Positions 25,462 through 29,378 of a stretch of DNA of 51,425 bases are shown here, one piece after another (position 1 is the stretch's first letter; the number at the start of each line of letters is the position of its first letter). The stretch is from Fidelibacterota bacterium (GTDB taxonomy: Bacteria; Fidelibacterota; UBA2242). The stretch spans positions 1-51,425 of the forward strand of contig JAGNGI010000009.1 of NCBI GenBank assembly GCA_018002295.1, written 5' to 3'. Position numbers and translations under genes: made by a program. Below the pieces are notes generated by a model that saw nothing but the letters and a program-made list of their open reading frames with translations, had not been told where the DNA came from and searched no databases.

Positions 25462-25563
25462 CTATTTATAAACATAATATTGAAGAGTTACTTCTTCCAT
25501 CTCATTGCTAGGAATCTGTATCAGTTGATACATCAATTCTTTTAGTGAAGACTCATAAGTATA
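25462..25563 (-). pseudogene. C-terminal gene fragment cut off by an IS982-like remnant
   Basis: On the minus strand a frame reads out of the IS terminus as GYTYESSLKELMYQLIQI, then PSNEMEEVTLQYYVYK and a TAG at 25462. No start codon exists on this side of the IS end at 25564. The piece looks like the tail of a protein-coding gene whose 5' part was lost when the element inserted. The parent family is not recognised. Confidence 0.4.
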
Positions 25564-26069
25564 ACCAGTTGTGTAGAATTAAGCGAGGGCATGTTTAATA
25601 TGGTTTAGGGGTTTATTATTGATAAAATTCAGGAACTGTAGCAAAGTGAAGGCAGTCACTTTCGATAAAATCCTGGTAGCCAAGCCAACAAAGATTTTGG
25701 TATAATTTATACGAATCACGAATTGATCTACCAAATTAGAAAACAAGGTTTCCCGGTTGTCTTCGATAATTCTTCAGATTGGAGCGCATGGTTGGCTTTG
25801 GAGAGATCAAAACTGGTTATGACCCCATTAAGACTGCAAACCCCATGGAATTTATACCCGAAATAATGGGAGTTTTGAGCCGCGCAATAGCCGTATTCTG
25901 GTTCTGTTTCAATAGATTCTTTGATAATTGGTTTAATACGATCGAAGGTTAATTTAAGATTGTGCATTAGTTTATCACCTTGATTATTATTGAATTACAA
26001 TATAATAATTTAAGGATTTTCAAGCTAATGCACATCTTATTTTTTAGGTTTTTATTCCACACGACGGGT
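25564..26069 (-). mobile_element. non-autonomous IS982-like element, copy 1
   Basis: The ends are inverted repeats: left ACCAGTTGTGTAGAATTAA, right (reverse complement) ACCCGTCGTGTGGAATAAA. The interior is about 90% identical to 27613-28146. Relative to that copy a 29-base deletion (between GGTTTC and CCGGTTG, near 25752) shifts the transposase frame. The remaining frame (25728-25967) begins MHNLKLTFDRIKPIIKES and passes 'YGYCAAQNSHYFGYKFHGVC'. No clean target-site duplication is visible. Confidence 0.75.
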
Positions 26070-26486
26070 ATATAATATTCTTTTGCTGTCATTGAAAAAT
26101 ATGGTTAATGTATTGTCATTGATTTTATAAGATGTTGCATTTTGAAGTGCACTTAGGTATTTCCAATAATTTGATCTGCACCACGCTTCCGTTGAAATAA
26201 TTAATCCAATGGAAAGAGAATCGTTGCCTCCAATCCAATAAGGAGCATGGTAATTGTTACCGCATAAAGTATCACTTTTACCGTATATAGTACTATCACC
26301 AAAAAGCAAAAAATAATCTTCGGTAGGGGCTAATGTTATTATTTCTCCGGTGACACTTTGAAAAGACTGCACTTCCCACCATATATTCTTGAGATTTGCG
26401 GGAATGTTCTGATTCGGCGAAGTCGAGTCAGAACATGCTCCTAACGCAAGTAGTAAGGTCATAAGTATATAGTTTATATTGTGCAT
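26052..26486 (-). CDS. small lipoprotein, function unknown, ending inside an IS terminus
   Basis: This 144-residue protein starts at ATG 26486 with AAAGGAG upstream. A lipoprotein signal (MHNINYILMTLLLALGAC) has its lipid-accepting Cys at about residue 18, followed by 'SDSTSP'. The mature part ('LKNIWWEVQSFQSVTGEI', 'DYFLLFGDST', 'TIFFNDSKRILYTRRVE') resembles small META-like beta-barrel lipoproteins, but the match is weak. The last six codons and the stop lie in the terminal inverted repeat of IS copy 1. The native C-terminus has therefore been replaced by the IS end. A ~175-base leader repeat lies upstream. Confidence 0.6.
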   Translation of the reverse strand: MHNINYILMTLLLALGACSDSTSPNQNIPANLKNIWWEVQSFQSVTGEIITLAPTEDYFLLFGDSTIYGKSDTLCGNNYHAPYWIGGNDSLSIGLIISTEAWCRSNYWKYLSALQNATSYKINDNTLTIFFNDSKRILYTRRVE

Positions 26487-26519: not shown

Positions 26520-26678
26520 TCAAAATTGGTTCATCACGGAATTAAACTTGCGCTGACTGTTCGGGACATTGTTTGTTTGGAAATCTGAATCTCGAGACAA
26601 CTCCATTCCTTTCCTACAATCCTTCCCTTCTGAGTTAGAAATAAAAAATCCTACGGTTTTCCGCTCTTCTGGTTTCAT
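26520..26678 (-). CDS. possible small ORF in leader repeat, copy A
   Basis: On the minus strand an ATG at 26678, preceded by AAGAAGAG, opens a 52-codon frame. It starts MKPEERKTVGFFISNSEGKD, continues CRKGMELSRDSDFQTNNVP, and ends NSVMNQF. An internal ATG (MELSRDSD) also has an AGGAAAGGA site. The same reading is conserved in the middle part of leader copy B, but there an early TGA interrupts it after MNPKERKTI. The conservation may simply reflect the shared repeat, so coding status is uncertain. Confidence 0.25.
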   Translation of the reverse strand: MKPEERKTVGFFISNSEGKDCRKGMELSRDSDFQTNNVPNSQRKFNSVMNQF

Positions 26679-26745
26679 CGAAGACTCTTCTTGCTTCTGG
26701 TGTAAGCTATATGATGGGGGGGGGTAAAGTCAATAGTTTTTTTGT
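26568..26745 (-). repeat. leader repeat R, copy A, with C9 tract in a candidate promoter
   Basis: This matches 29040-29215 in the same orientation at close to 90% identity. On the minus strand it starts with TTGACT (26728-26733), then TTA, nine C residues (26716-26724) and ATCATATAGCTT. This places a C-tract in the spacer between a good -35 box and a TATAGC -10-like box 16 bases away. The lipoprotein start is about 230 bases downstream. Confidence 0.7.
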
Positions 26746-26751
26746 AAGATT

Positions 26752-27069
26752 ATTTCTCCTGCCAGACGACACCGATATAATTATCGACAACATAACCTTG
26801 ATTATGAGTCGTAAAGGCAATCGAAGGACACTTGCCACCGGCGGTACCATCTAATGGCTGTCCATTATTTCCAAGCGTCCAGGTACTGCCGCCATCGCTG
26901 GAATGCTCAAGCCACACATGACCAGCACTGGTGTAAATCTGATGAAGCCAACGGGGATTTCCACCGGCTAAGGTCTGAATCAGTTTCCGCTGACTGGTAT
27001 TGAATGCCGCGGCATCATTGGAGCGGTAAATGCCCTTCCAGTTTGCCTGCAGGTTTTTATCGCTATCTA
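26752..27069 (-). pseudogene. 3' fragment of a BNR/sialidase-like secreted protein
   Basis: A minus-strand frame without a start codon reads ENIIDSDKNLQANWKGIYRS and later 'GNPRWLHQIYTSAGHVWLEH', 'SSDGGSTWTLGNNGQPLDG' and 'CPSIAFTTHNQGYVVDNYIG', ending VVWQEK and TAA. SSDGGSTW is a classic Asp-box (BNR) motif of exported beta-propeller proteins. The 5' part is missing, and the frame abuts the stop of the next lipoprotein gene, so this is a relic. Confidence 0.6.
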
Positions 27070-27077
27070 TTATATTT

Positions 27078-27641
27078 TCATTGAATTAACTCTAGCTGAC
27101 AGAGGTCATAATATATTTGCGATGGATAAATAAAAGGCATAATACTAATAATTACATACAAGCTATCTCCATTTGTCGTTGTAAGAGTATCAATTAACTC
27201 ATAGTAATTCCAAATAGAGTCCTGAATCGTGAAATACTTTCCATTACTTCTATTTTTATTGAAGTTTACGTATCCCTTACCATATCCTTGAGGATCTTTA
27301 AATTTTGCCCAAATTGATAATCTATAACGATTGCAACCTAGCGGTGCAGCTATTTTTGTTTCTAAATACATAGGTACTATTCGGTCTCCTCCATAAAGAA
27401 CAACAGACCAGTTGCCTCCGAACGGTGGAACATCATTGGAAAATCCAACATCGAGAAAATTACTATGTAAAGTCCAACCGTCAATTGATTTATTGCCATT
27501 AATTTCAAATGAAGAGTTGGTAATTAAGTTTAATCCTTCTTCGGTAAGCTCTGTCGGACATTCTTTCTCACAACCAGATATAAGAATAACAAGCATAGAA
27601 TATATTATAATCACCCGTTGTGTGGAATTAAGCGAGGGCAT
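27078..27641 (-). CDS. lipoprotein whose start codon is supplied by an IS terminus
   Basis: The 187-residue frame begins MPSLNSTQR inside the left end of IS copy 2. It then continues outside it as VIIIYSMLVILISGCEKE, giving a full lipoprotein signal with the lipid Cys at residue 24. The only other start, the internal Met16, leaves a signal too short to work. The mature domain ('TEEGLNLITNSSFEINGNKSIDGW', written as LITNSSFEIN and IDGWTLHS; 'YRLSIWAKF') looks like a carbohydrate-binding-type jelly roll with the usual 'NSSFE...GW' opening. The likely role is surface glycan binding, which is inferred. Native 5' sequence was replaced by the IS end. Confidence 0.55.
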   Translation of the reverse strand: MPSLNSTQRVIIIYSMLVILISGCEKECPTELTEEGLNLITNSSFEINGNKSIDGWTLHSNFLDVGFSNDVPPFGGNWSVVLYGGDRIVPMYLETKIAAPLGCNRYRLSIWAKFKDPQGYGKGYVNFNKNRSNGKYFTIQDSIWNYYELIDTLTTTNGDSLYVIISIMPFIYPSQIYYDLCQLELIQ

Positions 27642-28146
27642 GTTTAATATGGTTTAGGGGTTTATTATTGATAGAATTCAGGAACTGTAGCAAAGTGAAG
27701 GCAGTCACTTTCGACAAAATCCTGGTAGCTAAACCAACAAAGGTTTTGGCATAATTTACATGAATCACGAATTGATCTACCAACTGCGAAAACAAGGTTT
27801 CAATCCGTTTACGAACTTTTCGAAACAATGCCGGTTGTCTTCGATAATTCTTCTGATTGGAGCGCATGATTGGCTTTAAGAGATCAAAACAGGTTATGAT
27901 CCCATTAAGACTACAAACCCCATGGAATTTATACCCGAAATAATGGGTATTTTGAGCCGCGCAATAGCCGTATTCTGGTGCTGTTTCAATAGATTCTTTG
28001 ATAATTGGTTTGATACGATCGAAGGTTGATTTAAGATTGTGCATTAGTCTATCACCTTGTTTATTATTGAATTACAATATAATAATTTAAGGATTTTCAA
28101 GCTAATGCACATCTTATTTTTCGGGTTTTTATTTCACACAACGGGT
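27613..28146 (-). mobile_element. non-autonomous IS982-like element, copy 2
   Basis: This is a 534-bp element bounded by inverted repeats ACCCGTTGTGTGGAATTAA (left) and, in reverse complement at the right end, ACCCGTTGTGTGAAATAAA. It has the same orientation as copy 1 and about 90% identity to it. Each flank is AT-rich, with no certain target duplication. Together the two copies frame 26070-27612 like a composite transposon. Confidence 0.8.
27628..28044 (-). pseudogene. internally deleted IS982-family transposase
   Basis: The frame is intact for 138 codons, whereas IS982 transposases are usually about 250-300. It runs from MHNLKSTFDRIKPIIKES straight into 'APEYGYCAAQNTHYFGYKFHG'. The conserved C-terminal region follows: 'RKRIETLFSQLVDQFVIHV', 'NYAKTFVGLATRILSKVTAF' and 'SINNKPLNHIKHALA'. 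The first part of the DDE domain is missing, so it cannot be active alone. IS copy 1 shares exactly this junction, so the deletion predates their spread. Confidence 0.75.
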
Positions 28147-28197
28147 AAAATAATACGGTATAAATAAAAATTTTCTTCATTTTAATTCTCCCTAATG

Positions 28198-28857
28198 TTA
28201 AAAAACTATTCCGATATTTGACTGAAGATAATAGTTTGTAAAATCAATATTAATTATATCATCGTGGTATTGAGTAAGTCCCTTTAATAGTTTAACCTCA
28301 AAAGAATATGTATTACGACGAATATTGAATTTTTTATTTATCCCAATATCTAATATGAAATCAAAATCAGGAAAACTGCCTTTCATATTCTTTTTAAATC
28401 CAATATTACCAATTTCCCTATCATAAATTGTTAGGTTTGATTTTATAAGATAACCAATATCTATCCCTAATAAAATTCCTAGCTTATCAAAAATATTTAA
28501 ACCAAAGTTACTCGATAATCTCAAGAAATTGTTTTTATAATTAGCATAACAAGGACCTACAGCGGCAGCTGGTGAGTATTTAACCATAGAATTTGTATAA
28601 GAAAAATAAAAATCATTTAGGAGGAAAAAATGGGTATTAAAGGTTATAGTATTTGACAAACCCATATCAAATCCCAGAGGATATAAATACTTAATCGGTT
28701 CAAGACGGGTAAAGCTTTGTTTTGTAAAATTCATCCCAACTTTAAAGCCAGGATTAAAATATTTTATATCTGCCCCAAAAGAAAAAATTTCTAAGATCAT
28801 TATTAATAGTAAGACTTTAATTGGTTTTATGCTAAATCTCCTACAGTTAATTCTCAT
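28198..28857 (-). CDS. small outer-membrane beta-barrel protein
   Basis: This 219-residue protein has a signal peptide (about 1-29, 'IKVLLLIMILEIFSFGA'). Alternating hydrophobic/polar strands follow: 'NPGFKVGMNFTKQSF', 'LGFDMGLSNTITFNTHFF', 'GILLGIDIGYLIKS', 'FDFILDIGINKKFNI', and a C-terminal strand ending in Phe ('YYLQSNIGIVF'). This is the pattern of PorT-like or OmpW-sized barrels of the FCB group. Leader repeat R copy B lies upstream, after a ~160-base additional leader. Substrate or partner is unknown. Confidence 0.65.
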   Translation of the reverse strand: MRINCRRFSIKPIKVLLLIMILEIFSFGADIKYFNPGFKVGMNFTKQSFTRLEPIKYLYPLGFDMGLSNTITFNTHFFLLNDFYFSYTNSMVKYSPAAAVGPCYANYKNNFLRLSSNFGLNIFDKLGILLGIDIGYLIKSNLTIYDREIGNIGFKKNMKGSFPDFDFILDIGINKKFNIRRNTYSFEVKLLKGLTQYHDDIINIDFTNYYLQSNIGIVF

Positions 28858-29378
28858 ATTTTTGAATACGAAAAATAAATTTAGACGTCACTGTCTAGCA
28901 AACAACTAGATATTTGAAAAAAAAGAGAAATGGTAAGAGACAGTAAGCCCTCATAATTTTCAGACTTATAAACCTTAAAAGGAATCCTACCACTGCCCCT
29001 AAAGTTGCCATAATTTGATTTGTTCCGATTGACCGGAATATTGTTTGTTTGGAAATCTGAATCTCGAGACAACTCCATTCCTTTCCTACAATCCTTCTCT
29101 TCTAAGTTAAAAATAAAAAATCATATAGTTTTCCGCTCTTTTGGGTTCATCGAAGACTCTTCTTGCTTCTGGTATAATCTATACGATGGGGGGGTAAAAT
29201 CAAGAGTTTTTTTTAAAAAGTTTTTTATATAGTATCAGGACATGGCGTCCAATTTTATTAATGGCGTGACTAATTTAAAAGTAAGTTAACCGGTTTATGT
29301 CACAATGAATTTATCTAGGAAATGCTTCTTGACATTCTTCGATATCCGGGACACCAGTTATTTTAAACTGCTGAAAAA
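28858..29378. other. long upstream region of the barrel gene
   Basis: This 520-base stretch holds leader repeat R copy B (29040-29215). The 65-codon frame at 28881-29078 begins inside the repeat (MELSRDSD) and runs into unique sequence, and I regard it as unlikely to be a gene. Bases 29216-29378 show nothing recognisable. Confidence 0.4.
29040..29215 (-). repeat. leader repeat R, copy B, with C7 tract in a candidate promoter
   Basis: This is the second copy of the sequence at 26568-26745. On the minus strand TTGATT (29198-29203) is followed by TTA, seven C residues (29188-29194) and ATCGTATAGATTATACC. The C-tract is two bases shorter than in copy A, changing the -35 to TATAG distance from 16 to 14. 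The barrel-protein gene is the next gene downstream. Confidence 0.7.

Follow-up and report, generated by a model that had tools for sequence, protein, structure and literature searches.

Two copies of a putative sigma-70-type promoter whose spacer is largely a run of cytosines occur in the window (the whole 51,425-nt stretch analyzed here, contig C23 of G000, a 2.2-Mb, 120-contig Candidatus Neomarinimicrobiota MAG). The core is conserved in relatives, its copies differ in tract length, genes for exported proteins lie downstream, and C tracts are rare genome-wide. We infer that the core acts as a promoter whose tract slips within populations, with an effect on expression. On balance, we favor a promoter family with a C7–C10 tract in its spacer that drives exported surface-protein genes and in which slippage would reset the -35/-10 distance, and thus transcription. 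Because the same promoter precedes exported-protein genes in relatives, it is probably an expression switch driven by slippage, a kind already known, and such a switch is its most likely function.

Two poly-C leaders in the window and their surroundings

The two leaders (Table 1) are 90.7% identical across 182 aligned columns, and the single indel is the C tract itself, which differs by two C. The layout is TTGACT-TTA-C9-ATCA-TATAGCTT in leader A and TTGATT-TTA-C7-ATCG-TATAGATT in leader B. The original prediction of two near-identical leaders, with tracts of nine and seven C, ahead of a lipoprotein gene and a putative beta-barrel gene is confirmed. A search for further leader copies and the genes behind them recovered no third copy in the 2.2 Mb of G000; neither the exact leader core in GTDB contigs nor the promoter core in IMG/VR was found. 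The prediction had also placed promoter boxes on both sides of the tract. The -35 boxes stand, but TATAG does not hold as the -10: the TATATT of the homologues sets the -10 two bases further on, so that the spacers measure 16 bp with C7 and 18 bp with C9, instead of 14 and 16 bp.

Table 1. Features of the two leaders and the genes behind them, in window coordinates
Feature	Position	Strand	Basis and remarks
Leader A (promoter core and ~170-bp 5' leader)	26540..26743	minus	Ahead of META lipoprotein gene; alignment with leader B
Leader A -35 box, TTGACT	26728..26733	minus	Core-pattern match 26708-26733; 5/6 consensus bases
Leader A C tract, C9	26716..26724	minus	Longest C run of the genome
Leader A -10 region, TATAGCTT	26704..26711	minus	Homologue alignment; TATAGC at 16 bp or, in homologue register, TAGCTT at 18 bp
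Leader B (promoter core and 5' leader)	29012..29213	minus	Ahead of barrel gene; alignment with leader A
Leader B -35 box, TTGATT	29198..29203	minus	Core-pattern match 29180-29203; 4/6 consensus bases
Leader B C tract, C7	29188..29194	minus	Run count in window
Leader B -10 region, TATAGATT	29176..29183	minus	TAGATT at 16 bp in homologue register
Element AATTGGACGCCATGTCCTGATACT upstream of leader B -35	29231..29254	minus	Common to both G004 copies; absent from leader A; sequence comparison
META-domain lipoprotein gene	26052..26486	minus	Behind leader A; lipobox LGAC; Shine-Dalgarno AAAGGAG; 3' end enters IS end
Gene of putative small outer-membrane barrel (219 aa, exported)	28198..28857	minus	Behind leader B; barrel by inspection

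Apart from the two leader tracts, the window contains no C or G run of at least seven. Five runs of at least seven C occur in the whole of G000 (four C7 and one C9, the latter in leader A), compared with about 50 expected from composition (zero-order) and 15–24 from a third-order model. C tracts are thus scarce in this genome, and two of the five occupy the same place in two promoters.

The lipoprotein behind leader A matches Pfam META (2.2e-06) over profile positions 2-106 of 109, so that the domain is nearly complete. The 219-aa protein behind leader B has no Pfam match and was called a barrel by inspection; its AlphaFold model, made without an alignment, was uninformative (pLDDT 28), and no homologue was found in family f1. 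Within 28820-28857 a Shine-Dalgarno-like AGGAG precedes an ATA codon and a typical signal peptide (KPIKVLLLIMI), and the ORF's own ATG, upstream of the ATA codon, has no clear Shine-Dalgarno. The nearest named relatives of an adjoining Atg22-type transporter are from Candidatus Neomarinimicrobiota (63% identity). Elsewhere in the window, a TPP riboswitch (2644-2901) adjoins a selenocysteine tRNA gene.

Two internally deleted IS982-type copies (25561-26077 and 27612-28150) are 88% identical overall and carry the same deletion; their terminal repeats resemble ACCCGTTGTGTG, and longer copies are found on C74 and C48 of G000. Either transposition of this shortened form as a non-autonomous element or duplication of the region may lie behind the pair. 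The end of an IS copy supplies the first codons (MPSLNSTQ) of a lipoprotein ORF at 27078-27641; the native start of this ORF may thus have been replaced by the IS. The leader itself is not part of the insertion sequence, as IS982-type copies on C74, C48, and C27 lack it. A BNR-like exported protein fragment at 26756-27066 (IYTSAGHVWLEHSSDGGSTW...) ends just upstream of leader A, which begins directly behind the stop of this fragment and lacks the AATTGGACGCCATGTCCTGATACT element.

These surroundings raise the question of whether the window copies are decaying debris, that is, a duplicated promoter-leader from an IS-linked rearrangement that now controls nothing while relatives have working versions. 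The deleted IS982-type elements beside both genes, the gene fragment upstream of leader A, and the termination of the lipoprotein gene inside an IS end are consistent with such a history, as is decay of the -10 to TAGATT or TAGCTT and of the -35 to TTGATT or TTGACT. However, pure C9 and C7 tracts have been kept in a genome with only three other runs of this kind, the 3' ends of leaders A and B share a long invariant block, and the META domain is almost intact. We therefore regard debris as quite improbable.

Occurrence of the promoter in relatives

Among 245 genomes of the phylum that we searched, four besides G000 (G004, G008, G036, and G047) have the promoter, and a fifth (G062) has a shortened form of it. 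The shared core is TTGACA-TTA-C(7-10)-N-TATATT, and pairwise BLAST between genera gives E values down to 1e-23. A BLAST search with the leader recovered its promoter part in G004, which belongs to another genus of the same family (83% identity over 89 query bases), and in G062, from another family. The pattern TTGANNTTACCCCCN{3,18}TATA matched G000 (two sites), G004:C12, G008, G036, and G047, with three stray matches, compared with one match for the reversed-pattern control, and a second pattern added G004:C6. A census of runs of at least seven C in four genomes, which for G036 covered nearly all such runs, added G004:C2:9170 (C8) and G036:C1:2077337 (C7 inside an interrupted tract; designated G036b). 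The set comprises nine sites: G000_A, G000_B, G004:C12, G004:C6, G004:C2, G008, G036a (equivalent to that in G047), G036b, and G062. Four of these lie at G004:C12:215051, G004:C6:85984, G008:C107:3579, and G036:C1:2036070. Most sites beyond the first few came from asking for C runs, so the purity and conservation of the tract across the set are partly a product of the search; G004:C12 and G062, first found by BLAST, are free of this effect.

The 5.4-kb G047 locus (L135, contig G047:C10) is 99.6% identical to L134 of G036, with two substitutions, one 18-bp gap, and the same tract of ten C, and the two are for this reason counted as one observation. G036 is a separate species representative; the contig match may reflect a recent transfer or a mis-binned contig. 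The identical tract gives no sign of rapid slippage, in what is a small sample at this level of identity.

So far as found, the promoter is restricted to family f1 and one genus of family f8 (g17). A looser pattern, TTGAN{2,8}C7N{2,6}TATA, was not enriched phylum-wide (10 versus about 8 control sites, the control being the reversed pattern), which argues for a lineage-restricted homologous module, and poly-C promoters common to the phylum were rejected on this basis. Pattern matches in G125, G193, and G202 looked like sites within coding regions and one in G182 like an unrelated site; a candidate in G058 resembles a cobalamin riboswitch leader, and six further matches to a hairpin-like leader motif looked coding or unrelated. 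In a distant family, TTGATT-N6-C8-TCAAATATAT lies ahead of a lipoprotein gene (L276, G138:C22:8392-8420) and is possibly an independent poly-C promoter.

Genes behind all nine sites encode a signal peptide or lipobox, as judged by inspection. The leaders might instead have preceded non-surface genes at random, which would have spoken against the original prediction; every copy precedes an exported protein. FG-GAP repeat exported proteins lie behind G004:C6, G008, G036a, and G036b, and the three that could be read to their ends have T9SS-type C-terminal sorting domains. A gene for a peptidase-like protein of the C25 (gingipain) family comes next in G004:C6 and G036a and, judging by sequence similarity, in G008 as well. 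At G004:C12 a beta-helix lipoprotein is followed by a C25 protein (4.7e-76), at G004:C2 there is a lipoprotein resembling a PQQ-type propeller, and in G062 a PKD-LRR exported protein. The G008 and G062 loci, from different families, also lie near a gene for a HydF-like hydrogenase maturation GTPase (L133 5685-6953 and L136 4466-5650).

In G010 the FG-GAP orthologue lies behind a comparable TTGACATT promoter (TTGACA), which has a non-C spacer and no C tract. No run of at least seven C lies directly upstream of FG-GAP homologues from four more distant families either, indicating that the tract is optional. The proposed surface-gene promoter with a variable spacer tract is thus strengthened by its recurrence in other genera and another family, and qualified by the tractless G010 homologue and by the window copies, which are among the most degenerate.

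Leader sequences and proposed copying of the promoter

The sequence shared along with the core differs from pair to pair. Leaders A and B share core and leader, as do G008 and G036b, which belong to different families; the C12 and C6 copies of G004 share a 191-bp upstream region and the core, and the pair in G036 shares the core with 180 bp of upstream sequence. Leader B and the G004:C12 promoter region are 77% identical over 126 bp. The common denominator of these pairwise shared stretches is the core, which suggests that recombination has placed copies of it before different genes. The promoter, with varying upstream or leader sequence, would have been duplicated or recombined before different surface genes, the window holding two of the copies. 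It is tempting to go further and, tentatively, to picture a mobile promoter cassette, in which a slippage-tuned poly-C promoter was repeatedly copied before unrelated surface genes (T9SS FG-GAP and C25 operons, lipoproteins, and a barrel), giving an uncultured environmental phylum a set of surface proteins that switch independently; we hold this to be possible rather than likely.

A conserved regulatory RNA or leader peptide, with the C tract incidental, could also account for similarity between leaders. An AGAAGC...TCTTC-ATGAA motif is conserved in G000 and G004, five copies have an ATG between +53 and +55 and G062 has one at +45, and the G008 and G036b leaders align (71% over 184 bp). Against this, the leaders have no stable fold (z +1.41 and +0.47, no better than shuffles), and six leader loci compared with Rfam gave no match at E<=0.1; an RNA element or riboswitch was rejected on these grounds. 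The products of the short ORFs are unrelated, except in G008 and G036b (L257 and L108), where the similar MNKGFVVRSFELFSPTRRNGRGRDPRADIALQR and MNKEFVDRSFELALHNMWNGLGCDRWTDSALQR are encoded. A leader peptide was likewise rejected: the 52-aa ORF of G000_A is cut short by a stop at codon 10 in B, and G004 has no counterpart of it. Moreover, G036a and G004:C2 have lost the leader sequence while the tract promoter stays. We consider an RNA or peptide element very improbable.

Spacer length and probable slippage

The best-preserved relatives have a -35 of TTGACA (6/6) and a -10 of TATATT (5/6), separated by 16 bp (G004:C12 and G008), 17 bp (G004:C6), or 18 bp (G036a). A homopolymer tract lies between recognizable -35 and -10 elements at nine sites, the window copies being weaker, and the spacer to the best shared -10 is 16–18 bp at eight of the nine, with a 2-bp ambiguity in the -10 register (TATTAT lies two bases on). 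In G062 the tract directly abuts TTGA and the spacer is 11 bp; this promoter would be off or dead. Both window copies and G036b are the weakest of the set, and the window promoters match 8–9 of 12 consensus bases and were not picked out by a consensus scan. Tract length varies among copies within G000 (9 and 7) and within G004 (7, 9, and 8), while the length of the core is otherwise almost constant; G008 has 7 and G036a 10.

Homopolymer tracts in the -35/-10 spacer alter expression of porA and fetA in Neisseria and tp0126 in Treponema (PMC7864442, PMC2791445); the spacer optimum of porA and tp0126 is 17 bp (PMC7864442), and opc also has a homopolymer promoter tract (PMC2791445). The anatomy described above shows the sequence-level features of this mechanism. 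As in porA and fetA, a G/C homopolymer lies in a spacer of ~17 bp ahead of an outer-membrane protein gene (PMC7864442, PMC2791445), and the same holds for the poly-G of tp0126, an OmpW homologue of Treponema pallidum best expressed at 17 bp (PMC7864442). The present core is homologous to none of these three. The Neisseria genes belong to a different phylum, whereas here several copies appear to have been recombined before different genes and we infer switching from sequence; tp0126 is a single gene of a spirochaete pathogen. The surface-protein gene opc of Neisseria meningitidis has a poly-C promoter tract that overlaps the -35 according to one account (PMC7864442) and lies between the boxes according to another (PMC2791445), whereas here the -35 hexamer is clearly upstream of the tract, except in G062.

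In the favored reading, polymerase slippage on the tract, which makes up most of the spacer in the promoters of f1 and f8 g17, would shift the -35/-10 distance around a 17-bp optimum, and the gene or operon downstream would be transcribed according to spacer length, as happens with porA, fetA, and tp0126. In the homologue register the window spacers, 16 bp (C7, TAGATT) and 18 bp (C9, TAGCTT), are each one base off 17 bp. As they are equally far from the optimum, the proposal that one leader is on and the other off is not established.

The tract could alternatively be a fixed promoter part, such as a recognition element for a regulator or alternative sigma factor or a DNA-melting spacer, in a real promoter family whose length differences reflect slow drift rather than switching within populations. 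Leaders diverge from genus to genus but the tract remains C-rich, G036 and G047 have the same C10, spacers are kept at 16–18 bp, and leader B and both G004 copies have an element in common upstream of the -35. However, in a core that otherwise aligns well it is the tract whose length varies, the G010 promoter does without it, and mononucleotide tracts are generally slippage-prone. Tracts of 7–9 are short for fast slippage, which counts against a switch. Weighing these points, we find a fixed element unlikely, and retain slippage as the probable basis of the length differences.

Most known cases of promoter-spacer phase variation come from host-adapted pathogens. The mechanism is thus already known and the lineage would be new: a text search for Marinimicrobia with phase variation found no paper in the collection searched, and we found no earlier report in the phylum. 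If the slippage reading is correct, promoter-spacer phase variation would extend to the uncultured phylum Neomarinimicrobiota, acting on T9SS-secreted proteins, gingipain-type peptidase operons, and lipoproteins, and switching would plausibly serve escape from phages or grazers.
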